This document shows, piece after piece, positions 35,101-59,648 of a DNA stretch of 64,000 nt. Positions within the stretch are counted from its first letter, which is position 1. Each line of letters opens with the position of its first letter. The translations under genes were made by a program, and so were the position numbers. The notes beneath the pieces were generated by a model, which saw nothing but the letters and a program-made list of their open reading frames with translations, did no database searches and was not told the DNA's origin. The DNA lies in assembly GCA_903813345.2 (NCBI GenBank), contig CAIIXF020000009.1, positions 18,563,759 to 18,627,758 of the forward strand, given 5' to 3'. Origin of the DNA: Owenia fusiformis (Eukaryota; Annelida; Polychaeta; Sabellida; Oweniidae).

Positions 35101-38100
35101 ATGTGCTTTGTATGTCCTGTAGTATTTCATATTTTTGTTTGTTTGTTTTATGTTTAACCATGGGCTTTCAACTAGTTGAAAGCCCATGGTTTAACAATGT
35201 CATTTCTATAAACTAATCCAAATTATTGATTTTTTAGTAATTATTAATATTTCGTATGATCTTCAAAAGAGAAATTAGAAAAGTGAACAGACTTGACTCT
35301 AAATTGTGTAGAAATGCAATTAGACCCTTCATTTAGAATTAAGTGACACATTGATATGCTTAGGAGACACATTAACACCATTAAAAGACACATTAACACC
35401 ACTAATGCATGTAGAGTTACAAGTAGGACTATGGAGATGTTTAGCATTTAATATTTGTGTACTTAGTTATACCCAGTGATGTGTTTTCTTTAAATTTAAT
35501 TTATGTAATCAAACAAAAAATAATTAACATCTTATTCTGAGTGGAGCATTTATTTTGAGTGAAGTCTATTCTGAGTGAAGGCCTTTATTTCACTTGAAGC
35601 CTTTAATCTGAGTGAGACCTAGATTTTGTGTGAAGATTTTATTCTGAGTGTGTTTAGTTCGTTTGTTTTGTTATAACATGTATTGTATTCCACATTGTTT
35701 GTGCTGTGTTCACCACCTCATCAAATGGCTACCTATTGTTGAAATGAACATTTGAATATACACAATAATCTCATAACAGCGAATTTTGTAACAATTTAAA
35801 AGTGAGACTATCAATCAGAGGCAAGAATTGGCTCATTAAAGTGTCAACATATCCGGATGAAATAGATCCATTCCGGATTTGGAAATTATAAAAATGGAAT
35901 TAAAGTTACCTATTTATTACATTTTTAGCAGCATGCTTTTGCTTTATGTATACCAAATATGGTCATATTGCCATATATGGTCGGAGTGTTCCTATCCATT
36001 TGCATGCATGGAGTTTTCTAAGCATGTTACGTGTTACTAACTGATGTGTTACAGACAAACAAGGAAGAGACCGTGGTGCTAGAGCTACTACTAAGACTCC
36101 TCCCCCCTCCCCATCAGCTGTTGAAGGTACATCCCTTAGGCAATTATATATCCTTAGTTTTAGGAGCTCACATATACATGTGTAGTTCCTAAAAGTTAGG
36201 AAATCATTGTTCAGCCACTATCCATGAATTTGATGAATTTGAAAAATCATGTTTGGATGTGACTAAATGGTAAAGAAAGAAACTTCACATTAAGGAACTG
36301 TAGTTACACCAAGTTCCAAGATATGTATTATTAAGAACATATTAAGGTTTTTCACCAATGACTTGGATAGTGTCTCACTCAGTAATTAGTAATCGCCAAA
36401 TTAATATTCCATGTCTAATACTAACGTTTGTAGCTTGAACACATTCCATGGCCAAAATGTCAAGATGGTGGTATTATAACAAGGAAAATACAGTGAAAAA
36501 TGATGAAATTAGTAAGGAACGAAATAAACAGGAGTGAAGTGAAACTGAAAACTGAAAACGGAAAAATCATGGCCGACATTTTAGACATGAATGTTGTTAT
36601 ATTAACCCGTCCTAACAAAACTGAATATGTATGGCAATTCTGCAACTAATCCATTATTAGTGTACAACATACTTAGTATAGCTGTTTTTCTCCTACCAGA
36701 ACTGTAATGATTTAATCCATGTTAAACATTATGTGGAACTAGTTATATTATGACTAAAATAGAGTGGGATATCCTTGTCATGGTCAAATTAGCATAGGAT
36801 GATTCATGTTATTACTAGGTTTCCAAAGTGTGTGTGAAAGATGTGTGAGTGAAATGGAAGTGCAATTTTAGCAGACTTGTTAATTTTTTTCTCTTAGTCT
36901 GTATTAAATATTTTTATATATATTATGTACATGTATGTAGCAGACAAATATCTCGAAATTCTGTTACAATCTGCAATGTTTATGATATCTGTAAAACCAT
37001 TAATGTTTCTTTTGTATGTCACATTTCATATCATATCTATCCAAATATTATTGGATTACCTCAAAAGTATTACCTCATACTTTGAGTATTACCTTATACT
37101 TTGAGTATTACCTTATACTTTGAGTATTACCTTATACTTATCATGGCATGCAAATTGCATCATCACTTTAAACTTGTCATGTCATTTTCAAATTGAGTTC
37201 AAGCCAATGCACTGTTTGCCAATGAGCAGAACTGAGCTATTTTACTTTTGAAAATTTGACTTCTGTTCTGTTGCAGTGCAAACATTTCACTTTGATTCGC
37301 TTTGATTTGAAATGAATAATGTTGTAGAAATTCCAAAACCACTTCGCATACTTACAATTCACAATATACATTTCACAATAATATCAGGCATTCTATGTTA
37401 TATAAGGAAATGCATATCATATCAATGCATGTCATTTGTTTGTTTGGGCCACATGTAACAAATTATATATCTTGAATTTCAAGTACATGTATGCTCTAAC
37501 AGACATCTTACTGCAATATACCAGTTATTGTACGGTCAGCTTTGGATATAGGGCTCATCCTTTCTGTCCATTGGTAGATATAGATATTTTGACTTCTGGA
37601 ATATAAGCCCTCTATACCAAACCTTCCAGTACAGTACCTTTATGTTTTAGCACTGATTCTTGTATGTATTTGAGTCACAATTTGTTTGTTTGTTTATCTC
37701 CTACCCGCACATATAAGGAGCTAGCCCCGAATCTGAAACATCCGAAGAACAAGAAGTTGAAGAAATATTTGACGGAGAAAAATGGGTGACCATCCGTAAA
37801 GTTACTCATAAAATCAAAAAAGTTAAAACTACCACTAAAGTTGTAGAAGGTATAAACTACCACAATATGCATGATGATATGTCCATGTGTGTCAGCATTT
37901 TTGATATTTCAGTTCTACTTGTATATATGTAAATTTATATATTAATGTCTTTTGTCATTAATATTATATATCTAAGCCATCTCAAAATAACTTTTGACTG
38001 CTACTGTCAGGGATATTACTGACTGATTTTTCAGTACAGTTTTATTCTTTGCATAAAAATAACAAAAATATTTTTGAGTTGGCTGATTTATTTTATTTTT

Positions 38101-41100: not shown

Positions 41101-44100
41101 ATTTTTTGTAAATATTCAGTATTTCCAAACTCTCTCAGTGAAATTGTAAAATTAGAATGGCTTCATGGAAGTGTTGATTGTTTTTGTTCCTTTTTTGATT
41201 ATATGGCGTCATTTTTTGGTTTTGGTTTCCATCAAGCAGCTTTAGCAATATGCATGATATTTCATTTGGCAGCACAACATTATTTGAGTTCAAGCCATAC
41301 AGGGTGTCTAATGATTTATGAGACTGGACTCTGTGACACTAACCATTTCAGTTACAGCACTTTTCTCATTCTTTATGGGACACTCTGTATATACTCGTGC
41401 ATCCACATTTTATTTAGGGTTAGGTATCTTACATTTGAAACAGTATATTTTCTCTAATATTTGCATTTCGGACACAGACAATTTCTGCAATCATAATTTA
41501 TGTTAAATGTAATTCCAATCATTTTTAAGCAGTTATGCAATTTCATTTTTATGGAATTCCATGGCTTATCACAAAATACTTCAAATTATTGGGCTTTATC
41601 AGTCATTCTTCTGACTCGAGATTACATAATTTTTGGAGATGAACGAATGAACAAGTATTTTCATTTTCTTATTGCATATTAAGTTCTTGCATAGTTAAGT
41701 TATATCAGCATGCAACTGCATACTGTTACTATAAACCAAGTGAAGTTCAAGGAAAATGAATTCAGTGTTTTCAACAAGAACCACTTGGATTTTACAAACC
41801 TTGAATTTTGCTGTTTTAGGTTATAATTATTGCAGCTTTGTTTTTAAAGATTCTGTTATGTACATTATATTATGATTTAGTTAGATTTAATGTACACTGA
41901 CTGATTTTAAGATATTCACTGCAAATATGCTTGGATCTGATGCTTTCAAAGTTGCGTAAAGGTCGTTTACTCATCTTATAGTATGTCCTTGTTGAGGAAA
42001 TGGTCTCATGTCTGGTATGAGTAGAGATACTCATATCTTGGTTGAGTATAGATACTCATGTCTAGTATGAGTATAGAGTATAAAAACATATCCCAGCTTC
42101 CTTGATTCATGTGTTAAAAGGTTAGAGGTTTTACACTGCGCAAGCCAAGAAATCGTTGATGCCACATGACCACATTTAACCAAATATGGTCATGTGATCT
42201 TGGTTTGCAGTAAGTGGACATGCTGTGAAAACATTTTAGATTTAACAGATAAAGATTTTTGGAAGATACACTAAACTAGTGTGTGTGCAAGGAACTGATA
42301 TAAAAATTTCCTAAATCAGTTTTTTCATAGATGAAAAGGCTTGATGTTGAAAAAGACCTGCTTATATTGGTTCTTACTAATAAAATGCTTATATTGAATG
42401 CTTATTATAAAAAGATGCCATGAAAAGTTGATTTAGGCTTACTTCACAAATGCAAACCGCTGAGTTTACCTATACATGATTTATTTATAATTAAAAAGTG
42501 TTATTTGTATATCGCTTCGGCTTATAAAAAACGAAGTACTGATTTGAATTTATCTTTGAGTTGCTTGTAATCAGTACAGGTCTGTAGTGTATAACATAAC
42601 TCTATTTACAGTAATTAAGTAATCCTTCTCTTGGCTTTGGCATGTCTTGGATTTTCACTAGCTCACAGGCACCTTTTGCATACATACATAACCTGAAGAT
42701 CCTGAAATAGGTGGTAGCAACTAACACAAGGGAAGATGTATGTCTTCACTGGATTTTGGCATGATCTTCATTGAAATAGGGGTCTATTGAGCATTATCAT
42801 AAAGGCCTAGGTGGATTGCTATCATAATATGATATATAAGTGCTTCAAGAGCATTTTGTCCATGTCTTGTATGTATGTGATAATTAACAGTATGTGCCAT
42901 ACTCTTAGCCTTCACTTGGTATATGATTTACAGAAGAACCTATGTCTGTCCCTGAACCAGATGAAGTTGATATTCACACAGAAAGAACAGTTGGAGAGCC
43001 TGAAACTGAAACCTATGAAGATGAGGTAGAAGAAACTCTGCCTGATGGTACTGTTGTGAAACGTAAAATTATTAGAACTAGGACCGTGACTCGTGTTACT
43101 GAAAGGACCACCATTGAAGGTGTTGACACTGATATTACACGACCTGATGAGCCTGATAGCACAGATGCTGGTGAACCTGAGCCAGTTGTTATTGAGGAGG
43201 TTCCAACTGAACAGTTCGAAGCACCACCATCTGCTCCTTCTACTGAGGAAGCATATCAAGAACAACAACCTGAACCTGAACAATTTGAAGAACCAGCAGC
43301 TCTTGAGTTGTCTTATGAGCGGCCAGAGCCCGAACCTGAACAGTTTGAAGAACCACCAGCTCTTGAGTTATCTTATGAGCGACCAGAGCCCAAACCTGAA
43401 CAGTTTGAAGAACCACCAGCTCCTGAGGTGTCTTATGAGGAACCAGAGCCTGAACCTGAACGAATCACTGAAGATATCATCATGGGAGAACCAGAGGAAG
43501 ATGTGGATGTTGAAGAGATTGAAGAAACTCTTCCTGATGGCACTATTGTTCGACGTAAAATAATCCGTAAAAAGGTGACCCAACTTGTCACTAAAAGAAC
43601 AATTATAGAAGGTGGGGAAGCTCCAGAGATTCCTGATGATATGGAGCCTGAGAGCCAAGAGGAGTTCAATGAGACCCTGGATGATGGCACAGTTGTCCTT
43701 ACTAAAGTCTTTGTGTACAGATTTGACAACATGATAATTAAGAAGATCTTACGTACCTACCCAGATGGACAACAAACTGAGGACATCATGGTTGAAGAAC
43801 TACCAGGTGAACCAGAAATAATTGAAGTAGAAGAACCTGCTCAGGAGACTGAACCTTCTGAACCACCATCAGAGGTCACTGACTCTGGCTTGAATGTTCA
43901 ACGTACTGGCGATCTAAGAATCTACTCTGATGTTATTGAAGGTGAACCAACAGAAGATGTTGAGGTTGAAGAGTTCACAGAAGAGCTCCCAGATGGCACT
44001 CTTGTCAAGCGTAAAGTGACCAAAACCAAACAGCGTCAGCTGGTTACTAAAAGGACAGTGATCGAGGGCCATGAAGGTGAGGTTCTAGCTGGTGACTTCC

Positions 44101-47100
44101 CAGAAGGCATGTTCCCCGAAGGTGATGTCAAGGTCTACACATCAACAGAGGCTAGCGAACCCCAGACTGACCAAGACTATGAGGAATATGAGGAGACCTT
44201 ACCCGATGGCACGGTCGTCAAACGCCGTGTGGTCACCAGTAGATCACAACAGATGGTGAAACATCGCATCTTAATGGATGGCTCAGATCTTCAATACCCA
44301 GAAGGCAGTGAACCTGTGGAATATGAAGACACCCAGCAGAAAGGTAGTAAAGAATCAGAAGTGTGAAGTATTCACGGCGCATGGCCACTGGCGGCAGATC
44401 CACCTGCTTCTTATTATGAATTATGAGTTATAACATCACTGGACTATACCACATACAAACTGTAGCAGCTATATATGTGTATTTTGTTGCTTGGCAAGCT
44501 TGATGTTGTGCAGAATCGTGGCATATGAACTATATAGACATTGTTGATTGATCTTTGTTTGAAAACACCATGGGCTGATGATGGTGCACAGAAGTTTGCT
44601 TTGATGCATGGGATGTTGTTAGACTGAGAATGTGTTCACGCCCCCAAGCTCATTAAATGAGTATCCCTTTGTTAGAATATCATAGTGGTCATTGCTTAGA
44701 TTATAAGATAGAGTATAAAAGCGAGGAATAAGCTTCAAATGAAGTAAACAGGCATGTAGCCAAAATTCTGAATTATACTGAAATGGTAAAATATCTGGTG
44801 CTTTCTGAAAATATTAATGAGAAGTTGATTGGAATAAGCATGACTATAGTGAGATTTTAATCAAGGGATTACTTATTATATCACATTGATACCTTCGTTG
44901 TTTCAACATGTCTCATAATTTCCTTACATTTCATATACTTCATAATATTATTTTCAAATTTTACATTTGCTATATAGAGTAGATTTTGTTTCCCATTTAA
45001 GGCTATTACTACATTTGAAGCTTTATTCCTTTCAATGGATGTTAACATCCCAGGAAATATTTTTCGCAAATAGCAAAGTGCAAACTCCGAGGATGATCTT
45101 GTTTTGAAAAATTTAGATATTTAAACTATGAAATGTTTAATATGAACCCTTACTTGTAGTAGGCTATTTGATGGTATTTGATTACCCTATCTTTAATTTT
45201 GATTCATAAATTTTTCAAATTCAAACAAGGAAAAACTTGACCATCATGAGGAGTCTAAATGAATTTTTGATTTTGATCAATGTAGAAATGAAATGTAGAT
45301 GTTGTCGTTTTTCTTGTCTGTTCTATTATAATGTATTATTATCAGTTAATATTTTACATCATTTTTAGTTTGCCTTTAATATTAGATCTTATGCCAATTA
45401 TACCAATGTTATCATTTCAAAAGTTATTAAAAGGTGAATGGTAAGAAAATAATAATAAAATTATATTATACAAACATAAACAATTTTATTTGTGTTAAAT
45501 ATACCAAGTATATCAAAGAAAGTTGAATTAGAGTAATGCTAACTATGCATCTTTAGATATGAATGGCCATGCATAGCTGTAGTGGTAAAATAAATGGTAA
45601 GTTTTGTGGACCAACTCTGATCCCTTCACCCTATACAGTTAGTTTAACATGAAAGACCATCATAATAAAATTGACATTGGCTTTGGAATTCAGTAAAGAC
45701 GTTATTAATGATTATTTTTATTTTAATTCCACTAAATGTCCACAAAACTATCATATGGAGATACACTGTATAGTAGTCATGCTTCTTGCTGAAAAAGCAT
45801 GAGATTCTGAGGTAATAATAACCAAGGTTTTATAAACTAAATTACATCAGATAAAGATAAAATTGTGTATTGCTGTTTTGTAATATAGCCACAGAGGCTG
45901 ACCAGATCGTTCCTGCTTTTGATGAGCCACGGCAGACACCTGTTGAGGAAGCCATTCCAGTTGATGAGCAAATGGTCCAGGAAACTGCCCCACAGCCTGA
46001 AGAAGACGCACCACGTGAGGACATACCATTGGAGGAAGAACGACCTGTTGAAGTTGAGGAAGTTCAGAAACCAACTGAGGAACAAGAACAAGTTGTTCCT
46101 GAACCACAAGAGCCATTTATTGAAACAGAAACTATCACTGGTGAACCAGAAACTGAAACATTTGAAGATGAATTTGAAGAAACATTACCTGATGGAACAG
46201 TAGTAACTCGAAAAGTCACACGCACAAGGACAGTGACTAAAGTAACGCAACGAACCACAATGGAAGGATTTGAAGATCAGTTTGAACCAGAAAGACCAGT
46301 TGAGGAACAGTTTGAACCTGAACAAATTCCTGAACAGGAAAGTCAACCAATCATTGATGAACAATTTGAACCTGAACAAATCCCTGAACAGGAAAGTCGA
46401 CCAGTTGTTGATGAACAATTCGAATCTGAACAAATCCCCTCGAGAGAATCTGAACCATTGGAAGAATATCCAACAGAGCCAGAATTAACAACAGAAACTA
46501 TTACTGGTGAACCAGAAACTGAAACATTTGAAGATGAATTTGAAGAAACTCTTCCTGATGGAACAGTAGTAACTCGAAAAGTCACACGTACAAGAACAGT
46601 GACTAAAGTAACGCAACGAACCACAATGGAAGGATTTGAAGACGAGTTTGAACCTGAAAGACAAGTTGAGGAACAATTTGAACCTGAACAAATTCCTGAA
46701 CAGGAAAGTCAACCAATCATTGATGAACAATTTGAACCTGAACAAATTCCTGAACAGGAAAGTCAACCAATCGTTGATGAACAATTTGAACCTGAACAAA
46801 TCCCTGAACAGGAAAGTCGACCAGTTGTTGATGAACAATTCGAATCTGAACAAATCCCCTTGAGAGAATCTGAACCATTGGAAGAATATCCAACAGAGTC
46901 AGAATTAACAACAGAAACTATTACTGGTGAACCAGAAACTGAAACATTTGAAGATGAATTTGAAGAAACTCTTCCTGATGGAACAGTAGTAACTCGAAAA
47001 GTCACACGTACAAGAACAGTGACTAAAGTAACGCAACGAACCACAATGGAAGGATTTGAAGACGAGTTTGAACCTGAAAGACAAGTTGAGGAACAATTTG

Positions 47101-49649
47101 AACCTGAACAAATTCCTGAACAGGAAAGTCAACCAATCGTTGATGAACAATTTGAATCTGAACAAATCCCAGAGCAGGAAAGGGAACCAGTTGTTCAGGA
47201 ACAATTTGAACCTGAACAAATTCCTGAGCAAGAAAGGGAACCAATTTTTGATGAACAATTTGAACCTGAACAAATCCCAGAACAGGAAAGTCGATCAATT
47301 GTTGATGAACAGATTGAGGCTGAACAAATTCCTGTGAAAGAGTCTGAACCATTTGTAGAATATCCATCAGAGCCAGAAATAACAACTGAAACTATCACTG
47401 GTGAACCAGAAACTGAAACATTTGAAGATGAATTTGAAGAAACTCTTCCTGATGGAACAGTAGTTACTCGAAAAGTCACACGTACAAGAACAGTGACTAA
47501 AGTAACCCAAAGAACCACAATGGAAGGATTTGAAGATGAATTTGAACCAGAAAGACCAGTTGAGGAACAGTTTGAACCTGAACAAATCACTGAACAGGAA
47601 AGTCGACCAATAGTTGAGGAACAGTTTGAACCTGAACAAATTCCTGAACAGGAAAGTCAACCAATCGTTGAGGAACAATTTGAGCCTGAACAAATTCCAG
47701 AGCAAGAAGGGGAACCAATTGTTGATGAACAATTTGAACCTGAACAAATCCCTAAACAGGAAAGTCAACCAATTGTTGAGGAACAATTTGAACCAGAGCA
47801 AATGCCTGAACAGGAAAGTCGACCAGTAGTTGAGGAACAATTTGAACCTGAACAAATTCCCGAGCAGGAAAGTCAACCAATTGTTGAGGAACAATTTGAA
47901 TCTGAACAAATCCCTGTTAGAGAAACTGAACCATTTGTAGAATATCCATCAGAGCCAGAAATTACAACAGAAACTATCACTGGTGAACCAGAAACTGAAA
48001 CATTTGAAGATGAATTTGAAGAAACATTACCTGATGGAACAGTAGTAACTCGAAAAGTCACACGCACAAGGACAGTGACTAAAGTAACTCAACGAACCAC
48101 AATGGAGGGACCTGAAGATGAGTTTGAACCAGAAAGACCAGTTGAGGAACAGTTTGAATCTGAACAAATTCCTGAGCAGGGAAGTCAACCAATAGTTGAT
48201 GAACAATTTGAACCTGAACAAATTCCCCAGCAAGAAAGGGAACCAGTTCTTGAGGAACAGTTTGAACCTGAGCAAATTCCTGAACAAGAAAGAGAACCAA
48301 TTGTTGATGAACAATTTGAATCTGAACGAATTCTTGAACAGGAAAGTCAACCTATTGTTGATGAAAAATTTGAATCTGAACAAATCCCTGAACAGGAAAG
48401 TCGACCAGTTGTTGATGAACAATTTGAATCTGAACAAATCCCCTTGAGAGAATCTGAACCATTGGAAGAATATCCATCAGAGCCAGAATTAACAACAGAA
48501 ACTATTACTGGTGAACCAGAAACTGAAACATTTGAAGATGAATTTGAAGAAACTCTTCCTGATGGAACAGTAGTAACTCGAAAAGTCACACGTACAAGAA
48601 CAGTGACTAAAGTAACGCAACGAACCACAATGGAAGGATTTGAAGACGAGTTTGAACCTGAAAGACAAGTTGAGGAACAATTTGAACCTGAACAAATTCC
48701 TGAACAGGAAAGTCAACCAATCGTTGATGAACAATTTGAACCTGAACAAATCCCTGAACAGGAAAGTCGACCAGTTGTTGAGGAACAATTCGAATCTGAA
48801 CAAATCCCCTTGAGAGAATCTGAACCATTGGAAGAATATCCAACAGAGCCAGAATTAACAACAGAAACTATTACTGGTGAACCAGAAACTGAAACATTTG
48901 AAGATGAATTTGAAGAAACTCTTCCTGATGGAACAGTAGTAACTCGAAAAGTCACACGTACAAGAACAGTGACTAAAGTAACGCAACGAACCACAATGGA
49001 AGGATTTGAAGACGAGTTTGAACCTGAAAGACAAGTTGAGGAACAATTTGAACCTGAACAAATTCCTGAACAGGAAAGTCAACCAATAATTGAGGAACAA
49101 TTTGAACCTGAACAAATGCCTGAACAGGAAAGTCAACCAATTATTGATGAACAATTTGAATCTGAACAAATCCCAAAGCAGGAAAGTCGACCAATAGTTG
49201 AGGAACAATTTGAATCTGAACAAATCCCAGAGCAGGAAAGTCAGCCAAAAGTTGATGAACAATTTGAGCCAGAGATAAAAACAGAAATAATCACTGGTGA
49301 ACCAGAAACTGAAACATTTGAAGATGAATTTGAAGAAACTCTTCCTGATGGCACAGTAGTAACTCGTAAGGTTACACGTACCAGAACAGTCACTAAAGTT
49401 ACAGAGCATACAACTGTAGAAGGCTTTGAAGATCAGTTTGAAAGTGAGAAAGAACAACCCATCGATGAGCAGTTGGAACTGACAGAGGTTCCTGCCGAGG
49501 AGAGCCAGCCTGTTGTTGAGGAGGAGGTTGCACCAGAAGCTGTTAAAGAAGAAGAGCTGTCTCCATATGCTGTTGAGCAAGTGCTAGACAATGAAGGCCT
49601 TGAAGAGGTTGTTAAAGATGCTCCGGAAGAAGGTATTAAGCATCATTAA
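2087..49649 (+). CDS. ANK: Ankyrin gene, 3' portion (multi-exon; spans introns)
   Basis: Overall gene model. Ankyrins are membrane-skeleton adaptors: ankyrin repeats bind membrane proteins, the first ZU5 domain binds beta-spectrin, and a UPA domain, death domain and variable tail follow. Here the order is four ankyrin repeats (the last of the usual 24), linker, ZU5-1 with the DAR motif ([10 protein letters not shown]), ZU5-2, UPA, death domain, then a very long repetitive tail. Every exon in the model has AG/GT borders and splice phases compatible with its neighbours (0,0,0,1,1,1,1,0,0,2,2,1,0,1,1,2,0,0,1,1,0,0,1 and then phase 1 throughout). Joined exons give about 2,980 residues. The first ~20 ankyrin repeats and the promoter lie upstream of the window. 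Invertebrate ankyrin-2/UNC-44-like genes also have giant tail exons. Exact boundaries and isoforms are inferred without transcripts. Confidence 0.93.
2138..2443 (+). repeat. Tandem triplication (102 bp) of exon 3' half plus splice donor
   Basis: The 102-bp unit starts at GCAGAGGTCC inside the ankyrin-repeat exon, crosses the donor, and continues about 54 bp into the intron. Copies start at 2138, 2240 and 2342. The second is essentially identical; the third has CGGACAAAG instead of CGAACAAAG and diverges at its 3' end. Potential donors therefore lie after 2185, 2287 and 2389. Reading on past the first donor meets an in-frame TGA within the intron part, so only the first donor gives a normal product. 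Confidence 0.92.
2444..4654 (+). other. Intron, no feature identified
   Basis: Continuation of the intron between ankyrin-repeat exons. Short degenerate repeats (agtccaatataacaat type) continue to about 2490, and there is a small duplication of 'atgatgtcatatcatgtttct' type sequence near 3826-3870. I see no coding or RNA gene. Confidence 0.6.
4655..5680 (+). mobile_element. Composite non-autonomous element (family X) with 12-bp TIRs
   Basis: It is bounded by perfect 12-bp terminal inverted repeats, ATCCCATCGAAC at 4655-4666 and GTTCGATGGGAT at 5669-5680. After the left end comes a CCGT/ACGT microsatellite (about 4696-4778). This is followed by at least three copies of a ~148-bp core (period from 'tagtggagcgattttg' at 5082, 5230 and 5377) containing AAAATGGCCGCC and its complement. 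There is no coding capacity. This architecture resembles the 'pearl'/CvE-type elements of bivalves, thought to be Helentron-related. An inverted relative is at 57360-57650. Confidence 0.72.
4696..4778. repeat. CCGT/ACGT microsatellite inside element X
   Basis: Interrupted runs of cgtc and cgta tetranucleotides, for example ccgtccgtccgtacgtacg. The run belongs to the composite element. Confidence 0.9.
5873..5971 (+). CDS. ANK: Ankyrin exon: ankyrin repeat (about repeat 22)
   Basis: This 99-bp, phase 0-0 exon encodes one repeat, [20 protein letters not shown] followed by [13 protein letters not shown]. The acceptor is ttattatag and the donor is CAAG|gtaaca. It corresponds to the repeat that reads GYTPLHVGCHYGN in vertebrate ankyrins. 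Confidence 0.95.
6340..6800 (+). repeat. Intronic degenerate repeats with a decayed duplicate of the next exon's 5' end
   Basis: This intron is filled with degenerate 'gtaacacagtttcc' and 'ccatagtaac' motifs. A block at about 6656-6724 duplicates the region at 6771-6840. It includes a splice acceptor (ctgtttttag ending at 6700) and the start of an ankyrin exon (cttggctatacccacttcac). The duplicate has lost one base (ACCCAC for ACCCCAC), so the repeat frame is broken after a few codons. Confidence 0.75.
6814..6912 (+). CDS. ANK: Ankyrin exon: ankyrin repeat (about repeat 23)
   Basis: This 99-bp, phase 0-0 exon encodes [14 protein letters not shown], then [19 protein letters not shown]. It is strongly matched to the [13 protein letters not shown] repeat of ankyrins. 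The acceptor is gtgttttag and the donor is AAT|gtgagt. Confidence 0.95.
7078..7255 (+). CDS. ANK: Ankyrin exon: last ankyrin repeat and start of linker
   Basis: This 178-bp exon (phase 0 to 1) encodes [20 protein letters not shown], which is the capping ankyrin repeat. A threonine run and the linker [17 protein letters not shown] and TDSEDEG follow, as in other ankyrins (VPETMNEVLDMSDDE in vertebrates). The acceptor is gtttgtag and the donor is GGAG|gtgggt. Confidence 0.95.
7439..7450 (+). CDS. ANK: Possible 12-nt microexon in ankyrin linker
   Basis: A T-rich tract ending in tattattag is followed by 12 bases (aacatggcgtag) and gtagaa. The length keeps phase 1 on both sides and would add four residues reading EHGV after the preceding split codon. 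It lies in the linker that is alternatively spliced in other ankyrins. The donor is weak and the exon is too short to judge by coding content. Confidence 0.3.
   Translation, partial: NMA
8284..8343 (+). CDS. ANK: Ankyrin cassette exon, 60 nt (linker)
   Basis: A 60-bp, phase 1-1 segment between tttttgttcag and gtatgt is open in the required frame and encodes [20 protein letters not shown], a basic, serine-rich stretch. It can be included or skipped without changing frame, so it is likely a cassette exon. I recognise no domain. The borders are good but the support is only phase and openness. Confidence 0.6.
9320..9436 (+). CDS. ANK: Ankyrin cassette exon, 117 nt (linker)
   Basis: This 117-bp, phase 1-1 exon (acceptor atctaccag, donor GAGA|gtaaga) encodes [20 protein letters not shown] followed by [19 protein letters not shown]. 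Its codon use looks coding and it is GC-richer than the flanking intron. It sits between the ankyrin repeats and the ZU5 domain. No domain is recognised. Confidence 0.75.
9437..11503 (+). other. Intron, no feature identified
   Basis: AT-rich intron. There is a short duplication of 'actagtggttactatggtta' near 11101-11155. No exon or RNA gene was seen. Confidence 0.6.
11504..11601 (+). CDS. ANK: Ankyrin exon: linker (GEDxxL..MADDS)
   Basis: This 98-bp exon (phase 1 to 0) encodes [20 protein letters not shown], then [13 protein letters not shown]. It matches the conserved linker pattern GEDxMTGDxxKYL...LGDDSL of ankyrins. The acceptor is caattttag and the donor is TAAG|gtaatg. Confidence 0.9.
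12415..12540 (+). CDS. ANK: Ankyrin exon: linker before ZU5
   Basis: This 126-bp, phase 0-0 exon encodes [20 protein letters not shown], followed by [20 protein letters not shown] and YQ. It has good borders (ttgttttag, CCAG|gtatag). It is serine/tyrosine-rich and probably disordered. It could be skipped without a frame change. Confidence 0.85.
12965..13175 (+). repeat. Dispersed repeat (family R), copy 1
   Basis: This segment is clearly related, in the same orientation, to 63681-64000: 'ttctaaaaatcac', 'ggaaaactaaag', 'ttgggagaatttaaac' and 'tttataacatat.gtgaatctt' recur in order. It carries an extra 'aagaatggttaccattctta' palindrome that the distal copies lack. Confidence 0.8.
13679..13902 (+). 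CDS. ANK: Ankyrin exon: linker leading into ZU5-1
   Basis: This 224-bp exon (phase 0 to 2) encodes [20 protein letters not shown] through [16 protein letters not shown]. The end matches the stretch just before [13 protein letters not shown] in ankyrins. The middle contains [17 protein letters not shown], a possible basic phosphorylation site (RRRAESS), which is inference. Confidence 0.92.
14185..15290 (-). mobile_element. Degenerate Tc1/mariner-type element with ~390-bp TIRs
   Basis: The ends are CAGGGTGGGCC at 14185 and GGCCCACCCTG ending at 15290, flanked by TA on both sides (TA target duplication). The left ~390 bp (to about 14570) is an inverted copy of the right ~400 bp (from about 14885), with mismatches. 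The centre, read on the - strand, resembles the C-terminal part of a Tc1/mariner-like transposase: [22 protein letters not shown] and HLEQL (compare PNSPDLNPCDY-type motifs). It is interrupted by stops, so it is a dead or MITE-like copy inside the ankyrin intron. Confidence 0.8.
15293..16965 (+). other. Intron, no feature identified
   Basis: AT-rich remainder of the intron ahead of ZU5-1. No exon is recognised. The open frame at 16459-16650 lacks coding character. Confidence 0.6.
16966..17190 (+). CDS. ANK: Ankyrin exon: ZU5-1 (spectrin-binding), N-terminal part
   Basis: This 225-bp, phase 2-2 exon encodes [20 protein letters not shown], then [36 protein letters not shown] and HGAQFLG. This is the start of the first ZU5 domain. 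The DAR triplet, which in vertebrate ankyrins is required for beta-spectrin binding, is present. The acceptor is gatttcag and the donor is TTGG|gtaact. Confidence 0.97.
17388..17542 (+). CDS. ANK: Ankyrin exon: ZU5-1, C-terminal part
   Basis: This 155-bp exon (phase 2 to 1) encodes [37 protein letters not shown] and then [15 protein letters not shown], closing ZU5-1. Two donors 6 bp apart (GAAG|gtgaag and GAAG|gtgatt) both leave phase 1. Use of the second would end the exon at 17548 and insert two residues (GE). Confidence 0.96.
17549..19282 (+). other. Intron, no feature identified
   Basis: AT-rich intron. A pseudo-acceptor (aatttacag at about 19172) leads to an immediate in-frame stop and is probably unused. 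Nothing else was recognised. Confidence 0.6.
19283..19494 (+). CDS. ANK: Ankyrin exon: ZU5-2, N-terminal part
   Basis: This 212-bp exon (phase 1 to 0) encodes [59 protein letters not shown] and [12 protein letters not shown]. The FPQYFA..SR and EGG.LSST motifs identify the second ZU5 domain of ankyrins. The acceptor is gcattgtag and the donor is GCAG|gtatga. Confidence 0.97.
19663..19867 (+). CDS. ANK: Ankyrin exon: ZU5-2, middle part
   Basis: This 205-bp exon (phase 0 to 1) encodes [59 protein letters not shown] and [10 protein letters not shown]. It is typical of ZU5-2. The [17 protein letters not shown] wording is what I associate with lophotrochozoan ankyrins. Confidence 0.97.
20756..20779 (+). 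CDS. ANK: Ankyrin 24-nt microexon in ZU5-2
   Basis: A strong polypyrimidine acceptor (ccaattttttgcag) is followed by 24 bases and gtattg. The exon is phase 1-1 and inserts GGSSQSKL between SIPG and GGTSPAEW. At this position vertebrate ankyrins read directly from SITG into GTSPAQW. Removing it keeps the frame, so it is probably an alternatively spliced microexon. Support is phase, open frame, splice quality and exact placement at the domain loop. Confidence 0.72.
   Translation, partial: EGAANQN
20780..23248 (+). other. Intron with a MITE-like element
   Basis: AT-rich intron. Besides the inverted-repeat element at 21445-21930 and part of a dispersed repeat (gagaaataagcaaggaataaa near 22845), I see no exon. 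A direct 'taaggtcattaaaattgaattt' triplication lies near 22213-22280. Confidence 0.6.
21445..21930. mobile_element. MITE-like inverted-repeat element
   Basis: AGAGGTTAAG at 21445-21454 is mirrored by CTTAACCTCT at 21921-21930. Imperfect inverted repeats continue inward for about 50 bp (accgta, caaaacg, aacgtat). The interior has no coding capacity. Its local composition is slightly GC-richer than the surrounding intron. The superfamily and target duplication are unclear. Confidence 0.6.
23249..23345 (+). CDS. ANK: Ankyrin exon: ZU5-2, C-terminal part
   Basis: This 97-bp exon (phase 1 to 2) encodes [20 protein letters not shown] and [13 protein letters not shown], which ends ZU5-2. The acceptor is gcttatag and the donor is CAAG|gtatgt. 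Confidence 0.97.
23669..23897 (+). CDS. ANK: Ankyrin exon: UPA domain, N-terminal part
   Basis: This 229-bp exon (phase 2 to 0) encodes [60 protein letters not shown] and [10 protein letters not shown]. These are the hallmark UPA residues found in ankyrins, with relatives in UNC5 and PIDD. The junction with the previous exon splits an arginine codon. Confidence 0.97.
24760..24860 (+). repeat. Dispersed repeat family S (copy)
   Basis: Contains 'attagcgaggaataaa', 'ggcatgtag', 'aaattgtagagaaatg' and 'attagacactttattcaaattt' in that order. Related degraded copies lie near 22840, 33600, 35260, 36490, 44700 and 50380. This may be a SINE-like or other short repeat. I saw no tRNA-like promoter boxes. 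Confidence 0.55.
26150..26520. repeat. Degenerate tandem repeat
   Basis: 'gaattcattcataa.gaataac' recurs about every 80-125 bp, beginning near 26155, 26279, 26364 and 26444, interspersed with 'taacatatagtgtaaata'. It is not coding. Confidence 0.6.
27237..27488 (+). CDS. ANK: Ankyrin exon: UPA domain, C-terminal part
   Basis: This 252-bp, phase 0-0 exon encodes [60 protein letters not shown] and [15 protein letters not shown]. The family motifs LEGKPxxVxxxGNLxPxTKxG, FRENRLPF and PxxxICNLNxxLP are intact. Confidence 0.97.
27861..28137 (+). CDS. ANK: Ankyrin exon: acidic linker and death domain start
   Basis: This 277-bp exon (phase 0 to 1) begins with the charged helical linker [20 protein letters not shown]. 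It continues into the death domain: [36 protein letters not shown] and [18 protein letters not shown]. The W-x-x-LAREL and LQLWVQKEG motifs are diagnostic of the ankyrin death domain. Confidence 0.96.
28384..28518 (+). CDS. ANK: Ankyrin exon: death domain end
   Basis: This 135-bp, phase 1-1 exon encodes [20 protein letters not shown] and then [20 protein letters not shown]. The first half is the last death-domain helix region (compare DALTSVLTKINRIDIV in vertebrates). The remainder starts the variable tail. Confidence 0.93.
28673..28773 (+). CDS. ANK: Ankyrin exon: tail
   Basis: This 101-bp exon (phase 1 to 0) encodes [20 protein letters not shown], then [14 protein letters not shown]. It has a strong donor, AAA|gtaagt. 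No domain; it is the beginning of the isoform-variable tail. Confidence 0.85.
29780..29800 (+). CDS. ANK: Ankyrin 21-nt microexon
   Basis: A long pyrimidine tract (gcttttttgctccatgtag) precedes 21 bases, followed by the good donor GGAG|gtgaga. Phase 0-0; it encodes NLEDIGE. It fits between flanking phase-0 exon ends, so it can be skipped without changing frame. Confidence 0.7.
29801..30796 (+). other. Intron with X-box-like sites and ATTCCATAG repeats
   Basis: Contains GTTGCTATGGTAAC (29901-29914) and GTTACTATGGCAAC (30016-30029), which match the RFX X-box pattern. Degenerate repeats of 'attccatagtattcc' run from about 30560 to 30790. A possible 28-bp exon at 30307-30334 breaks the frame. 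Confidence 0.6.
30560..30790. repeat. Degenerate 'attccatagt(g/a)ttcc' tandem repeat
   Basis: Short units of about 15-30 bp containing ttccata, tgttcc and ccttatt recur irregularly across the segment. Confidence 0.6.
30797..30854 (+). CDS. ANK: Ankyrin exon: acidic tail
   Basis: This 58-bp exon (phase 0 to 1) encodes [20 protein letters not shown]. It is acidic and serine-rich. The acceptor is tttaccag and the donor is CCAG|gtgaga. Confidence 0.85.
31056..31147. repeat. 23-bp minisatellite, 4 copies
   Basis: The unit starting AATCTCTTTGTATTTCTC repeats four times with a 23-bp period, with one T-to-G change in the third copy. The antisense open frame over it is a repeat artefact. Confidence 0.92.
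31148..32115 (+). other. Intron, no feature identified
   Basis: AT-rich intron with short 'tttattcatgtatgtgtaa' repeats near 31300. No exon was recognised before 32116. Confidence 0.6.
32116..32325 (+). CDS. ANK: Ankyrin exon: tail with amphipathic segment
   Basis: This 210-bp, phase 1-1 exon encodes [40 protein letters not shown] and [20 protein letters not shown]. The [21 protein letters not shown] part resembles the conserved ankyrin tail segment VIDYLTNDIGSSSLTNLKYKFE of vertebrate ankyrins, so it is probably functional. The donor gtaccc is weak but in phase. Confidence 0.88.
32472..32578 (+). CDS. ANK: Candidate alternative terminal exon (basic C-terminus)
   Basis: After an acceptor (gaaatttag), the phase-1 frame encodes [20 protein letters not shown] and [15 protein letters not shown], then TGA at 32576-32578. 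There is no usable donor before the stop. If used, it ends the protein with a short, very basic tail instead of the long acidic tail. AATAAA occurs only about 1 kb downstream (near 33625), so 3' end formation is uncertain. Confidence 0.35.
33773..33805. repeat. Hairpin, 13-bp stem CATGGGCTTTCAA
   Basis: CATGGGCTTTCAA and TTGAAAGCCCATG are separated by 7 nt. The same stem forms the palindrome at 35156-35191. Confidence 0.88.
33961..34300. repeat. 20-bp minisatellite, 17 copies
   Basis: The unit AAAGCTGTACATGTCAGTAT repeats with an exact 20-bp period. Copies tend to alternate between a 'GTACATGTCAG' form and a 'GCAC(A/T)TTTCAG' form, giving a loose 40-bp higher-order period. Confidence 0.95.
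34740..34889 (+). CDS. ANK: Ankyrin exon: acidic/methionine-rich tail
   Basis: This 150-bp, phase 1-1 exon encodes [40 protein letters not shown] and [11 protein letters not shown]. The acceptor is gttttacag and the donor is AAAG|gtacat. It is a disordered tail; MxMD repeats are visible. Confidence 0.87.
34890..36054 (+). other. Intron with palindrome and degenerate repeats
   Basis: Contains the perfect palindrome at 35156-35191 and degenerate 'tctgagtgaagcctttatt' repeats at about 35535-35650. No exon was seen. Confidence 0.6.
35156..35191. repeat. 36-bp perfect palindrome
   Basis: AACCATGGGCTTTCAACT is followed directly by its own reverse complement with no spacer. The pairing nearly extends further (GTTT/TAAC with one mismatch). 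Confidence 0.95.
36055..36126 (+). CDS. ANK: Ankyrin exon: basic, proline-rich tail
   Basis: This 72-bp, phase 1-1 exon encodes [20 protein letters not shown] and SAVEG. The acceptor is gtgttacag and the donor is GAAG|gtacat. The TPPPSP motif could be an SH3-like or proline-directed kinase site (inference). Confidence 0.85.
36127..37717 (+). other. Intron with small tandem repeat
   Basis: AT-rich. Contains a 19-bp tandem repeat (TTTGAGTATTACCTTATAC) at 37081-37138 and a degraded family-S repeat near 36470-36545. No exon was seen. Confidence 0.6.
37718..37849 (+). CDS. ANK: Ankyrin exon: single diverged charged module
   Basis: This 132-bp, phase 1-1 exon encodes [20 protein letters not shown] and [20 protein letters not shown], then KVVEG. 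It has the same layout as the modules in the large exons: acidic lead, xxDGxxV turn, then alternating basic/beta-branched RKVTxKxKKV, then VEG. It may therefore be a relic or founder of the amplified module. The acceptor (acatataag) is rather poor. Confidence 0.85.
38124..38167 (+). CDS. ANK: Candidate alternative terminal exon (short C-terminus)
   Basis: A very strong polypyrimidine acceptor (gtcttctgcttctttttcag) leads in phase 1 to [14 protein letters not shown] and then TAA (38165-38167). If used, it ends the protein just after the first charged module. No AATAAA was seen nearby, and the coding part is too short to judge from composition. Confidence 0.35.
38168..39452 (+). other. Intron with tcatgatgtcac minisatellite
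   Basis: AT-rich intron whose main feature is the repeat at 38830-39170. No exon was seen. Confidence 0.6.
38830..39170. repeat. ~20-bp 'ttcatgatgtcacatttgta' minisatellite
   Basis: Degenerate units of about 20-22 bp built on 'ttcatgatgt(c/t)ac' repeat across the segment. Part forms a larger unit of about 60-80 bp. The open frame through it is a consequence of the repeat. Confidence 0.88.
39453..39554 (+). CDS. ANK: Ankyrin exon: acidic tail
   Basis: This 102-bp, phase 1-1 exon encodes [20 protein letters not shown] and [15 protein letters not shown]. The acceptor is gtacttctag and the donor is AAAG|gtacac. It is acidic and helix-prone, with no recognised domain. Confidence 0.88.
39555..42933 (+). 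other. Intron, no supported exon
   Basis: AT-rich. An open frame of 133 codons at 41056-41457 is hydrophobic and lacks splice or family support. A short TIR-like pair (tacagggtgtc at about 41300, gacactctgta at about 41382) may be a tiny MITE. Small 'gtatgagtatagatactcat' inverted repeats lie near 42015-42075. Confidence 0.55.
42934..44343 (+). CDS. ANK: Ankyrin large exon 1: diverged charged modules
   Basis: This 1,410-bp, phase 1-1 exon (470 codons) starts after atttacag and ends at AAAG|gtagta. It is very acidic, E/P-rich and probably disordered. It contains about five diverged copies of the charged module: [75 protein letters not shown] and [18 protein letters not shown]. Between the first two are three to four ~22-residue units of [20 protein letters not shown] type. 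If the donor is ignored, the frame runs seven more codons to TGA at 44364-44366. The modules are much more diverged from each other than those of the next exon, so they are older. Function is inferred: a long flexible tail presenting multiple binding modules. Confidence 0.93.
44344..44366 (+). other. In-frame extension past donor to stop (possible alternative 3' end)
   Basis: If the intron after 44343 is retained, the protein ends KGSKESEV. The last residues, S-E-V, fit a class I PDZ ligand (S/T-x-hydrophobic). Whether transcripts end here is unknown. Confidence 0.3.
44367..45888 (+). other. Intron, family-S repeat copy, no exon
   Basis: AT-rich. A copy of the 'gcgaggaataa...aggcatgtag' repeat is at about 44700-44790. 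No coding sequence was seen. Confidence 0.6.
45889..49649 (+). CDS. ANK: Ankyrin large exon 2: eight charged modules and 32 acidic 18-mers
   Basis: Enters in phase 1 after taatatag. The frame stays open for 1,253 codons to TAA at 49647-49649. After a unique acidic lead it has eight copies of a ~57-residue module ([39 protein letters not shown], then [17 protein letters not shown]). They are separated by runs of an 18-residue unit ([18 protein letters not shown]) and an 11-residue spacer ([11 protein letters not shown]). The GEPETET codons start at 46140, 46506, 46926, 47400, 47982, 48510, 48876 and 49296. The spacings fit 366 + 54n bp (n = 0,1,2,4,3,0,1), so runs hold 3,4,5,7,6,3,4 units (32 full). 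Copies are nearly identical at DNA level. A unique acidic end follows ([20 protein letters not shown]). A weak in-phase donor at 49632 (GAAG|gtatta) could instead splice onward. Confidence 0.94.
46130..49430 (+). repeat. Two-tier coding tandem repeat (57-aa module plus 54-bp unit)
   Basis: Nested array inside the last ankyrin exon: module-to-module distances of 366, 420, 474, 582, 528, 366 and 420 bp, each differing by multiples of 54 bp. Modules 2, 3, 6 and 7 are almost identical over more than 150 bp, which points to recent duplication or gene conversion. The outer modules (1 and especially 8) are more diverged. Confidence 0.95.
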
Positions 49650-51500: not shown

Positions 51501-52000
51501 NNNNNNNNNNNNNNNNNNNNNNNNNNNNNNNNNNNNNNNNNNNNNNNNNNNNNNNNNNNNNNNNNNNNNNNNNNNNNNNNNNNNNNNNNNNNNNNNNNNN
51601 NNNNNNNNNNNNNNNNNNNNNNNNNNNNNNNNNNNNNNNNNNNNNNNNNNNNNNNNNNNNNNNNNNNNNNNNNNNNNNNNNNNNNNNNNNNNNNNNNNNN
51701 NNNNNNNNNNNNNNNNNNNNNNNNNNNNNNNNNNNNNNNNNNNNNNNNNNNNNNNNNNNNNNNNNNNNNNNNNNNNNNNNNNNNNNNNNNNNNNNNNNNN
51801 NNNNNNNNNNNNNNNNNNNNNNNNNNNNNNNNNNNNNNNNNNNNNNNNNNNNNNNNNNNNNNNNNNNNNNNNNNNNNNNNNNNNNNNNNNNNNNNNNNNN
51901 NNNNNNNNNNNNNNNNNNNNNNNNNNNNNNNNNNNNNNNNNNNNNNNNNNNNNNNNNNNNNNNNNNNNNNNNNNNNNNNNNNNNNNNNNNNNNNNNNNNN
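51501..52000. other. Assembly gap, 500 N
   Basis: Exactly 500 Ns, probably a placeholder of unknown true size. Missing AP5Z1 exons could lie here. Confidence 0.99.
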
Positions 52001-55255: not shown

Positions 55256-58200
55256 CTAGAATAAATATTACCATTGTCTACACTATGTTCTTTTCTCTGT
55301 TTACTGTGTTTAGAATAGTTTTCAGGACAGATAATCCAAAATGCCCAACCTAACATTTATCCAGACTGCCCAAAAACTAGTCAGTTCTATACTCTTATAC
55401 ATAGAAACATCCCTAAAATTTTAGGATGAATCCATGAAACCTTGAAACTTGTAGACAAGCCTCAACAGACAAGATTTAAGGATGGAAACATTTACCCAGA
55501 AAGCCCAAAAACTGATCAGTTCTAGACTATCATAGTAGAAACATCCCTGATTTCAGATGAATCCATGAAATGGTTTGGCTGGAGACCTGTAGACGAGCCT
55601 TGACAGACAATAATTGAGGACGGAAAATCCCAAATGGCCGCCTTAACATTTACCCAGAATGTAGAAAAACTAATCAGTTCTAAACTTTCATGTGTAGAAA
55701 CATCCCTGAAATTTCAGATGAATCCCGCAAACGGTCTGGCTGGAATCCTGTAGACAGGATTAATTGGGATGCACAATTATACAGGTTGTTAATTTTTCAC
55801 CAAATTCACGGTTATTTGTCAGCAAAATTATCTAAGACACAAAAAACAAATGTCACCACATGCACCAAACATCAACCGCCAACTACCTAATAGGCTAAAA
55901 TATTTCATAATTTGGCTGACTACTCAAAAAACTATTGATATGCGATGAAGTGCTAAAATGTATATTGTATAGCACTTCATTTTAAAGATAAAACAATATT
56001 TTTCAATCCACAATATTATTACCTAGATTTAAAACAGTAAACATATCTCTGCATGGGGAGCCATCTAATTCTGTTACATTTGGGGGCCGATCCTTGCCAA
56101 ATATGCTTTTACTGTATGGATTAGGGGCTTGGCTCAATCCTGCATGTATCAACCAGCTTACGAGTTGAGTGTCTATTAGGAGGATCTGATCTAGAATAAG
56201 ACATAAAAGCAATCCTCATTTTATTGAACATTTTATTTTATTTCTGTATTCCAGAATAATTGTCCCACAAGGGGATGTTTATTTATTTACCCCTGGTTTT
56301 ATCAAACTAGCACGTGTGTGTACTTTACTAAGGAGCAGCAATGCACAAACTACCCTTTGGACGGACTTGAGGATGAACAGATGACTGAGTGAGCAATTCC
56401 ATAAGTGCACCACTTGAGTCAAAAGCTCACCATGTGAGCAAAAATACATGTTAAAATGAATAAAAAAAAAACAGTAAAACACTTAAAGAAAAAGGTTTGA
56501 CCAGTCAAGAACTGACACAGACATTAAACTTGCTCATATTTTACCTGCAGTGAAGATTTCTGGATATTCTCTACTGAAAGCTGTGATTGATGCTAGTGCA
56601 GCACTTTTGGTTAAGAACTCACAGCCAACAGTGGTGGCCCATCTAAAATTAAAATATTTTTCATTTTTATTTTTATCATTTCTATACAAATATAGTTCCA
56701 AGAATATTGAATCAAGTATTCTTGAATTTTGGCAAGACATCTTTCACCTCAAACTCCTTTTGAACACTATTTTCAAATATGCAAGTAGTAGCTGATGCTA
56801 GACCATCACAAAAACTGACTACTAGTATGCATTTAATTTTTAACAAGACACACACTGATAAATATCACACTTTAAAATGCCAAGGCATTGTGAATCCCAT
56901 AGGCTGCCATTTCTGAAAATGACTGCCTATCAGCCAAATTGTCACTGACAGTGTAATATGCTTCGAAGTATTCACATATAAAAAGACACGTCTCGGTTGG
57001 AGAGCAGTCTACTGGGCTAATATTTTTTTGAATACAAATATTCAAAAGAGGACAATTAAATCTACAATATGTAAAATATCAAAATTGTCCGAAGCAGTCG
57101 TAACGTGCAGTAGACCAATTCAATAAAAGACAAGTTTCACTTTGGAGAACGAAGTGCATCAGTCTACTGCCCAAATAATTTTTTATTGAAAATTAGAAAT
57201 AAAACCCAAATTAAATTATGAATATTCAAAGGAGGACATTTAAAGCTACAATATGTAAAAATATCAAAATTGTCCAAAGCAGGCATAACGTGCAGTAGAC
57301 TGATGAACTTCTTTTTCCAAACTAAGACTAGTCTTTTCAACAAACTCACGTATCTACTTTTAAAGTTAAAGCAAGTAAAAATGGTGGTTATATATCAAAA
57401 TGGCCGCTCACTGGAAAATTGTCATCAGAACATGTAATATGTTTTCAAGAAGTCACATATAAAATTTTAACAAAATTGCTCCATTACTTTTTAAGTTATA
57501 CCAAAACACGTAAAATAACACTTGTAAAAATGGTGGGCATTTTGAAAAATGGCCTAATAAGCAAATCGGACAGACTGATGGACGTATTGAAGGACAGATG
57601 GAGCTGTTCTCTTTATCCCCCTGAACTTCGTTTGATTGGGTAAAAATCCTACTAATTGGCCCAGCAGCACAAATATTAATTCACAACATTCCCCACTTTT
57701 AAAACCAAGATTACAAGTAACTTATGCCTCAGTCACGTTTGCTATGGTGGCCGTTGCATTCACTAAAGCATGCATAATTGCTAGAGCGAACCAAGAAATG
57801 GAACAAGGCACAGACGTGAACAATATCGTACCTAAAACACAGCATTGTGGTTTTGTTGACCAAGAAAGCAAGATGGCCGCAGAAAAGTTAATCAGCTCTA
57901 GAACTTATCACTGTGTAACATATGTAAAAATTTGAACGGTTTGGCTGGAAACCCGTAGACAAGCCTCGATAGACAAGATTTTAGGACGGAAAATCTAAAA
58001 TGGCAGCCTTAACATTTACCCAGAATGCCCAAAAACTAATCAGTCCTTGACATTGATACGTAGAAACATCCCTGAAAATTTCAGATGAATCCCTTAAATG
58101 GTTTGGCTGAAAATCTGTAGAGAAGTCTTGAAAGTGAAGACTCTAGGACGGAAAATCCAAAATGGCCACCTTAAAATTTACCCACAATGCCCAAAAACCA

Positions 58201-59648
58201 ATCAGTTCTTGTTGTTGATATGTAGAAACATCCCTGAAAATTTCAGATGAATCCCTCAAATGGTTTGGCTGAAAATCTGTTGACAAGTCTTGAAAGTGAA
58301 GATTTTAGGACGGAAAATCCAAAATGGCCACCTTAAAATTTACTCACAATGGCCAAAAACTAATCAGTTCTTGACATTGATACGTAGAAACATCCCTGAA
58401 AATTTCAGATGAATTCCTCAAAAGGTTTGGCTGATAACCTGTAGACAAGTCTTGAAAGTGAAGATTTTAGGACGGAAAATCCAAAATGGCCACCTTAAAA
58501 TTTACCCAGAATGCCATAAAACCAATCAGTTCTTGACGTTGATAGAAACATCCCTGAAAATTTCAGATGAATCCCTCAAATGGTTTGGCTGAAAATCTGT
58601 AGACAAGTCTTAAAATTGAAGATTTTAGGACGGAAAATCCAAAATGGCCACCTTCAAATTTAACCAGAATGCCCAAAAACTAATCAGTTCTTGACGTTGA
58701 TATGTAGAAACATCCCTGAAAATTTCAGATGAATCCCTCAAAAGGTTTGGCTGGAAACCTGTAGACAAGTCTTGAAAGTAAAGATTTTAGGATGGAAAAT
58801 CCAAAATGACCACCTTAAAATTTACCCAGAATGCCCAAAAACTAATCAGTTCTTGACGTTGATATGTAGAAACATCCCTGAAAATGTCAGATGAATCCCT
58901 CAAATGGTTCGGCTGAAAACCTGTAGACAAGTCTTGAAAGTGAAGATTTTAGGACGGAAAATCCAAAATGGCCACCTTAAAATTTACCCAGAATGCCCAA
59001 AAACTAATCAGTTCTTGACGTTGATATGTAGAAACATCCCTGAAAATTTCAGATGAATCCCTCAAATGGTTTGGCTGGAAACCTGTTGACAAGCTGAAAA
59101 GAGAGACACCGCCCACCCGCCCACCGCCGCCCGTCAAGCTGACTACAATATCGTACCTCTTATAAGGTACGATAAAAACTCAATGTTAGAATTCCACAGT
59201 GACCTTTACAGTCTAAACAATCTTCTGCAGTTCTGTTTGGGGAACTATGGCTGCAGTATCCTATCCAAAGAGTAAATGTGACTAAGGCATAAAATTGATG
59301 ACACTTACACAGGGACTTATCTAGAGGAGGATGAAAGGATAAAAGTAATAGTGGAAAATATAGGGAGAGTTCAAAAGTGGTGGGTAATTACTAAGGTAAG
59401 GCAGTTATGGTGTTGAATATCCATGTGGAGGCAATAATGTTGTCCAAAATGAAGAAATATGGTAGAGAAGGAAAGATGACGAAAGTTTGGGGGTCATCCC
59501 TAGGTCAGGAGAGAGTAGGTATGTGACATCTGGCTGAGATTGAGGCTTCTCCTTCAGGAGAAAGTAGGTACATGTATAGTTGATATGGTAATTATACTTA
59601 CTTTATAATCTGAGGAAGTATCTCCTTCACATCATTTTTGCCAAGCTC
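55094..59648 (-). CDS. AP5Z1: AP5Z1, AP-5 adaptor zeta subunit (partial, spans introns)
   Basis: Four - strand exons (59602-59648, 56545-56642, 56023-56190, 55094-55255) join in phases 2, 1, 1 to give 158 residues. They correspond to roughly residues 150-310 of the ~800-residue AP-5 zeta subunit. Key matches from memory of the human protein: LLxxxLVxWLxxAxL, a VTE-DG---DxFTVL block (here NVTELDGSPCRDMFTVL), an LNxQAFxxLxxWL block (here LLNIQAFNSLKPWLI) and the EYCxRxxEQ helix (here VVDYCFRVLEQYER). AP-5 is an endosomal coat-like complex that works with SPG11 and SPG15; it is an alpha-solenoid subunit. The 5' exons lie beyond 64 kb. The later exons are missing from this assembly. AP-5 is absent from Drosophila and C. 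elegans. Confidence 0.85.
55325..55760. repeat. Family Y core repeats (3 degraded copies)
   Basis: About 165-bp units with 'catttacccag..gcccaaaaactaatcagttct', 'gtagaaacatccctga', 'tttcagatgaatcc' and 'tggaaacctgtagacaagcc'. They are older and more diverged than the array at 57935-59100. Confidence 0.8.
56023..56190 (-). CDS. AP5Z1: AP5Z1 exon: TELDGSPCRDMFTVL segment
   Basis: This 168-bp, phase 1-1 exon (acceptor tcttattctag, donor CTAG|gtaata) encodes DQILLIDTQLVSWLIHAGLS, QAPNPYSKSIFGKDRPPNVT and ELDGSPCRDMFTVLNLG. It is the best-conserved AP5Z1 block in the window. Confidence 0.9.
56545..56642 (-). CDS. AP5Z1: AP5Z1 exon: WATTVGCEFLTKS segment
   Basis: This 98-bp exon (phase 2 to 1; acceptor taattttag, donor GCAG|gtaaaa) encodes WATTVGCEFLTKSAALASIT and AFSREYPEIFTAG. 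It precedes the DQILLIDTQLVSWL helix, as in AP5Z1. Confidence 0.85.
57360..57650 (-). mobile_element. Inverted partial copy of element family X
   Basis: The end 'gaacttcgtttgattgggt' (57627-57645) is the reverse complement of a variant of the left end at 4655. 'aaaattgctccattactttttaagttat' mirrors the 'ataactcgaaaagtagtggagcgatttt' core. It is truncated and diverged, and lies in an AP5Z1 intron. Confidence 0.7.
57824..59176. mobile_element. Composite element family Y with 3' hairpin
   Basis: Begins near TATCGTACCT (57824-57833) and ends with the inverted match AGGTACGATA (59165-59174). Just before the end is a hairpin TCGTACCT-cttata-AGGTACGA (59151-59172), preceded by a CCGCC/CCACC-rich run (59107-59132). 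Inside are seven ~162-bp tandem copies (tagaaacatccctgaaaattt at 58061, 58222, 58385 and onward) with AAAATGGCCACC. No coding capacity. Confidence 0.68.
59602..59648 (-). CDS. AP5Z1: AP5Z1 exon: ELGKNDVKEILPQII segment
   Basis: This 47-bp exon (phase 0 to 2) between gtggctgtttcag and AAA|gtaagt encodes ELGKNDVKEILPQII plus a split lysine codon that completes at 56642. It is the most 5' AP5Z1 exon in the window. Confidence 0.82.

Follow-up and report, generated by a model that had tools for sequence, protein, structure and literature searches.

Downstream of its death domain, the canonical ankyrin of the annelid Owenia fusiformis carries a long acidic tail in which a module of about 46 residues is repeated, with eight near-identical copies encoded by the last long exon and a total of 14 (1 + 5 + 8) over three exons. 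The tail is likely to be the post-death-domain, long-exon part of a giant-type ankyrin of the protostome kind, serving as a flexible docking tether with multiple sites. Repeat-bearing tails of giant ankyrins are of a known kind, the interesting part here being a strongly constrained, foldable-looking module present 14 times. Such repetitive tails have previously been proposed to be spacers; a module under selection in 14 copies is a concrete unit that can be traced across phyla.

All feature coordinates given below are positions in the window, that is, the whole stretch of 64,000 nucleotides of Owenia fusiformis DNA analyzed (contig CAIIXF020000009.1, assembly GCA_903813345.2). Pfam analysis showed the domain order of a canonical ankyrin—ankyrin repeats (Ank_2, 5.5e-28), two ZU5 domains (9.2e-41, in two stretches), a UPA domain (UPA_2, 2.1e-53), and a death domain (5e-18)—and the tail is thus part of an ankyrin of the spectrin-binding type, as the initial annotation, made from the DNA letters alone, had held. 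The domains are located as follows.

2087–7200, forward strand: last ankyrin repeats (Pfam), with further repeats upstream of the window
16904–19881, forward strand: exons of the tandem ZU5 domains (PF00791, two stretches)
23230–27524, forward strand: exons of the UPA domain (PF17809), the sole UPA_2 matches in the genome
27861–28529, forward strand: death domain, in two exons (PF00531, E 5e-18)

Searching of the whole genome (498 Mb in 525 contigs) found matches to UPA_2, the module, and the spacer unit confined to this one gene, which is therefore the only canonical ankyrin gene found in the genome. Within the ankyrin-repeat region, a 102-bp unit occurs three times at 2138–2439, each copy comprising the 3′ half of an ankyrin-repeat exon plus the splice-donor region; the triplication yields three tandem candidate donors.

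The repeated tail is encoded by the following features.

37718–37849, forward strand: small exon of 132 nt, phase 1-1, with one diverged module
42934–44343, forward strand: preceding long exon of 1410 nt, phase 1-1, with five diverged modules
45889–49649, forward strand: long exon containing eight modules and acidic spacers; either the last coding exon or, with its end at 49632, an optional one
46125–46268, forward strand: module 1
46491–46634, forward strand: module 2, its core DNA identical to that of modules 3, 6, and 7
46911–47054, forward strand: module 3
47385–47528, forward strand: module 4, with eight synonymous and no non-synonymous codon differences from module 1
47967–48110, forward strand: module 5
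48495–48638, forward strand: module 6
48861–49004, forward strand: module 7
49281–49424, forward strand: module 8, the most diverged, with 75–80% DNA identity to the others
46302–49253, forward strand: spacers, made of an acidic 18-residue unit that is present 32 times, in seven blocks of 3–7

The last exon follows an acceptor AG at 45887–45888 and has a single open frame of 1252 residues that ends with a TAA stop codon at 49647–49649; the net charge of its product is −307. The open frame and the module positions confirm the eight near-identical modules described in the initial annotation, and the strings quoted there for the acidic lead and the basic strand are found exactly in copies 1–7 and in variant form in copy 8. 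No two of modules 1–7 differ at more than one residue within a 49-residue core, and module 8 is 91% identical to the other copies over the aligned module. The claim of amplification was likewise upheld, with a genome search using the module returning 12 matches (best E 1.8e-22), all of them in the ankyrin gene—a score and a confinement that exclude chance. In a repeat analysis of the window, the spacer unit appeared as a tandem period of 54 bp, and module and spacer together as a higher-order tandem unit of 366–582 bp with a variable number of 54-bp sub-repeats.

More detailed comparisons of the repeats at the codon level point to strong purifying selection on the module cores, stronger than on the spacers, and thus to a sequence kept for a reason. 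Mean dN/dS was 0.077 for the module cores and 0.24 for the spacer units, these values being means of pairwise Nei-Gojobori estimates over non-independent pairs and hence descriptive. Summed over all pairs of cores, 179 codon differences are synonymous and 35 non-synonymous, and comparisons of module 8 with the rest gave a dS of 0.6–0.9 and a dN of about 0.05–0.08. The sameness of the modules is therefore not the result of recent copying alone, since the core differences are mainly synonymous; recent copying also occurs, as indicated by the identical DNA of modules 2, 3, 6, and 7. These values bear on the proposal that the array is a mere length spacer grown by replication slippage, as has been put forward for the repeats of Drosophila Ank2 XL. 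Tandem units of variable sub-repeat number would fit such growth, and some ankyrin long exons are known to contain repeat arrays (PMC5135030). However, with the constraint on the module cores three times that on the spacer units, and with the modules predicted to fold, a role as spacer only is quite unlikely.

The remaining modules lie in the two exons upstream, those of exon 42934–44343 having their turns near 43032, 43524, 43671, 43980, and 44193. Exons 37718–37849, 42934–44343, and 45889–49632 are symmetrical (phase 1-1), with lengths that are multiples of three, and the join from 44343 to 45889 is in frame through GCC, giving 1722 open residues. A donor-like GT is present at 44343|GTAGTA, where read-through would give an alternative stop at 44364–44366, and a possible donor at 49632 (GAAG|GTATTA) preserves phase 1-1. 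Since in each case the donor-like GT is followed by a stop within a few codons, each of the two long exons (42934–44343 and 45889–49649) could be either internal or terminal, exon use and the full-length isoform here being deduced from splice signals and frame.

Structure prediction was consistent with a compact module in an otherwise flexible chain. For one module, with six rows from the window as the alignment, AlphaFold2 gave a β-hairpin with strands at residues 9–20 and 26–37 and a pLDDT of about 90–93; for a two-module construct, both modules had a pLDDT of 92–97 and the spacer a value below 50, which predicts disorder. The input alignments held 6–7 closely related rows, and repeats can lead to over-predicted hairpins. 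Each module is thus predicted to fold as an acidic strand (charge about −8), an LPDG turn, and a basic strand (about +4) in a β-hairpin, with the rest of the chain disordered.

Another possibility is that the modules bind each other, with neighboring or separate tails pairing into larger β-sheets and thereby cross-linking ankyrin molecules. The complementary charge of the two strands would suit such pairing; furthermore, the basic strands are longer in the two-module model (26–43 and 166–187), its pTM of 0.45, reached with nearly half of the chain disordered, gives a weak indication of packing between the two modules, and structural matches to this model span strands of both modules. However, identical repeats within one construct can pair artificially, and comparison of the models by Foldseek and VIA-align yielded no convincing solved fold (Foldseek probabilities low; best Z 4.7). 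Self-pairing is therefore regarded as unlikely. Pores, secretins, and Ig domains, which formed the top structural rows, were dismissed at Z ≤ 4.7.

Giant ankyrins whose long exons follow the death domain are regarded as the ancestral state in bilaterians, and their long-exon sequences have been described as evolving too fast for visible homology (PMC5135030). Giant transcripts of this type are typically neuronal. The criteria for such exons are a size of more than 3 kb, a position downstream of the UPA domain and after the death domain, and a composition of about 25% S+E and more than 55% S/E/T/D/K/P (PMC5135030). Exon 45889–49649 measures 3,761 nt, with the death domain upstream at 27861–28529, and its product contains 29.4% S+E and 58.2% S/E/T/D/K/P, serine alone accounting for 3.7%. 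The likeness to bilaterian giant ankyrins thus extends to size, position as in protostomes, composition, and the repeat arrays that some of their long exons carry. Unlike those arrays, whose units measure 36–228 bp (Jegla et al., 2016; PMC5135030), the Owenia array is built on two levels—a conserved, folded-looking module and an 18-residue spacer repeat—with a higher unit of 366–582 bp, and is distributed over two long exons and one small exon. Drosophila Ank2 XL similarly has a long, repetitive post-death-domain tail, for which a spacer role has been proposed, but that tail consists of 93 copies of a 76-residue repeat, and no alternation of module and spacer is reported in the portion of the description consulted.

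A closer parallel, by description and not by sequence, is UNC-44 AO13 of Caenorhabditis elegans, in which six S/T/E/P-rich blocks are separated by seven "hydrophobic domains" (PMC7159925), an alternation of acidic or polar repeat blocks with short segments like that of the Owenia tail. The C-terminus of UNC-44 binds UNC-119 and through it UNC-33/CRMP and microtubules, and the long isoforms of both UNC-44 and Drosophila Ank2 link to microtubules (PMC7159925). The Owenia tail might accordingly connect the cortex to microtubules, either directly or via UNC-119/CRMP-like adaptors for which the hairpins would be the sites, and genes of the UNC-119/PDE-delta family are present in the genome. However, the binding of UNC-119 was demonstrated for the extreme C-terminus of UNC-44 alone, not for its repeated hydrophobic domains, and the very acidic charge of the Owenia tail (−307) argues against direct bulk-charge binding to microtubules, which are themselves acidic. 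The microtubule link is thus a possible explanation, though not the expected one.

With respect to the reading of the tail as part of a giant-type ankyrin, the tail probably works as a flexible, multivalent tether. The ankyrin core would anchor the protein at spectrin and at membrane proteins, and the tail would extend from there into the cytoplasm, where its hairpins may together provide avid docking for a cytoskeletal partner. Which of the three in-frame exons are spliced in might determine how many sites the tail offers, 14 at most.

Obscurin has also been considered as the partner. The initial annotation had proposed that the module may be akin to the obscurin-binding motif of vertebrate small ankyrin-1; of this proposal, a compact and constrained module in multiple copies stands, and the link to the obscurin-binding site was not established. 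The motif TRKVIRKVVRQ, given there for ANK1, reads VTKKIIRKVVRQ in the actual ANK1 sequence. The Owenia array and the obscurin/titin-binding-related domain (OTBD) of vertebrate ankyrins share a place at the C-terminus of an ankyrin—the Owenia modules lie C-terminal to the death domain, the position expected of an OTBD—as well as an acidic lead, a turn, a basic β-branched strand, and a description as β-sheet, in the vertebrate case from PMC12812942. Unlike the 2 or 3 modules of vertebrates, however, Owenia has 14, and the resemblance between the sequences is at about the 1% level by shuffling.

The sequence of human small ankyrin-1 used for these comparisons was confirmed over residues 71–156 by their match to PDB chain 7tw3_G (full-length ankyrin-1). 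Comparison of profiles, which the initial annotation had suggested, gave a divided result: module profiles searched against PDB sequences at E ≤ 10 did not reach full-length human ankyrin-1 (7tw3_G, present in the set), whereas a focused hhalign comparison placed the best alignment of the module on the known ANK1 segment QGNIVTKKIIRKVVRQ, with a probability of 11.9%. The hhalign score was reached by 2–7 of 400 local shuffles and by none of 400 full shuffles, and the reversed tail scored lower. In hmmsearch, the best domain fell on residues 81–109 of small ankyrin-1 with 9.1 bits, a score reached by 24–51 of 3000 local shuffles, and the reversed ankyrin-1 tail scored 8.0–11.3, about equal to the real tail; this match, apparently significant against full shuffles, was dropped after the local-shuffle and reversed controls. 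PDB sequence searches with one module and two alignments returned nothing relevant, and ANK2 segments scored no better against the module than did ANK1. An ANK2 segment itself matches ANK1 weakly (E 0.09), and the database negative for the module is therefore not strong contrary evidence. Overall, the similarity to the ANK1 segment, although it falls where it should, amounts to a hint and not to proof of homology.

Were the modules true relatives of the OTBD of ankyrins 1–3, the tail would be a multivalent obscurin ligand that ties the M-line to the membrane or to the sarcoplasmic reticulum. The common gene family and region, the hhalign placement, and the shared β-sheet description are consistent with such kinship, and the weak match between ANK2 and ANK1 suggests that the module may evolve faster than scores at the database level can follow. 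Furthermore, the genome contains an obscurin/UNC-89-type gene (contig C7, 15.69–15.73 Mb) with SH3, RhoGEF, I-set, a FN3-like frame, and two kinases. An open frame of 2331 residues of FN3-like repeats is found within this gene at C7:15706137. Against kinship stand the failure to reach full-length ANK1 in the PDB, the tie of real and reversed tails in hmmsearch, the reported vertebrate-specific occurrence of the OTBD (Hopitzan 2006, as cited in PMC2942773), and the report that UNC-89 and Drosophila obscurin are without the ankyrin-binding region (PMC12812942). It is unlikely that the modules are relatives of the OTBD. Equally doubtful is the wider proposal of an ankyrin β-hairpin module (OTBD) as old as the bilaterian ancestor, amplified to 14 copies in a protostome lineage as a multivalent link from spectrin and membrane to obscurin or another giant partner; if the module is related to the OTBD, the gain of the domain in vertebrates would need revision.

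Binding to the non-modular C-terminus of obscurin is among the defining features of an OTBD. Since this stretch is the ankyrin-binding one, modeling a module with the Ig domains of obscurin, as had been suggested, would address the wrong surface. Judged by analogy to the giant ankyrins of protostomes, a microtubule-linked partner is slightly more likely than obscurin.

No relative of the module was found in collections of viral contigs and genome contigs, a literature search for the module peptide strings found no occurrence, and inspection of the repeats by eye for LC8 and EB (SxIP) motifs revealed no canonical motif. Pfam matches of the two long exons to DUF1599 and GFP were judged spurious, as they fall on low-complexity stretches. 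Just downstream of the gene is a run of 500 N bases (51501–52000), and farther on are satellite-like arrays of a 162-bp unit in seven copies and a 65-bp unit in 15 copies (57938–59101 and 59673–60647, respectively).
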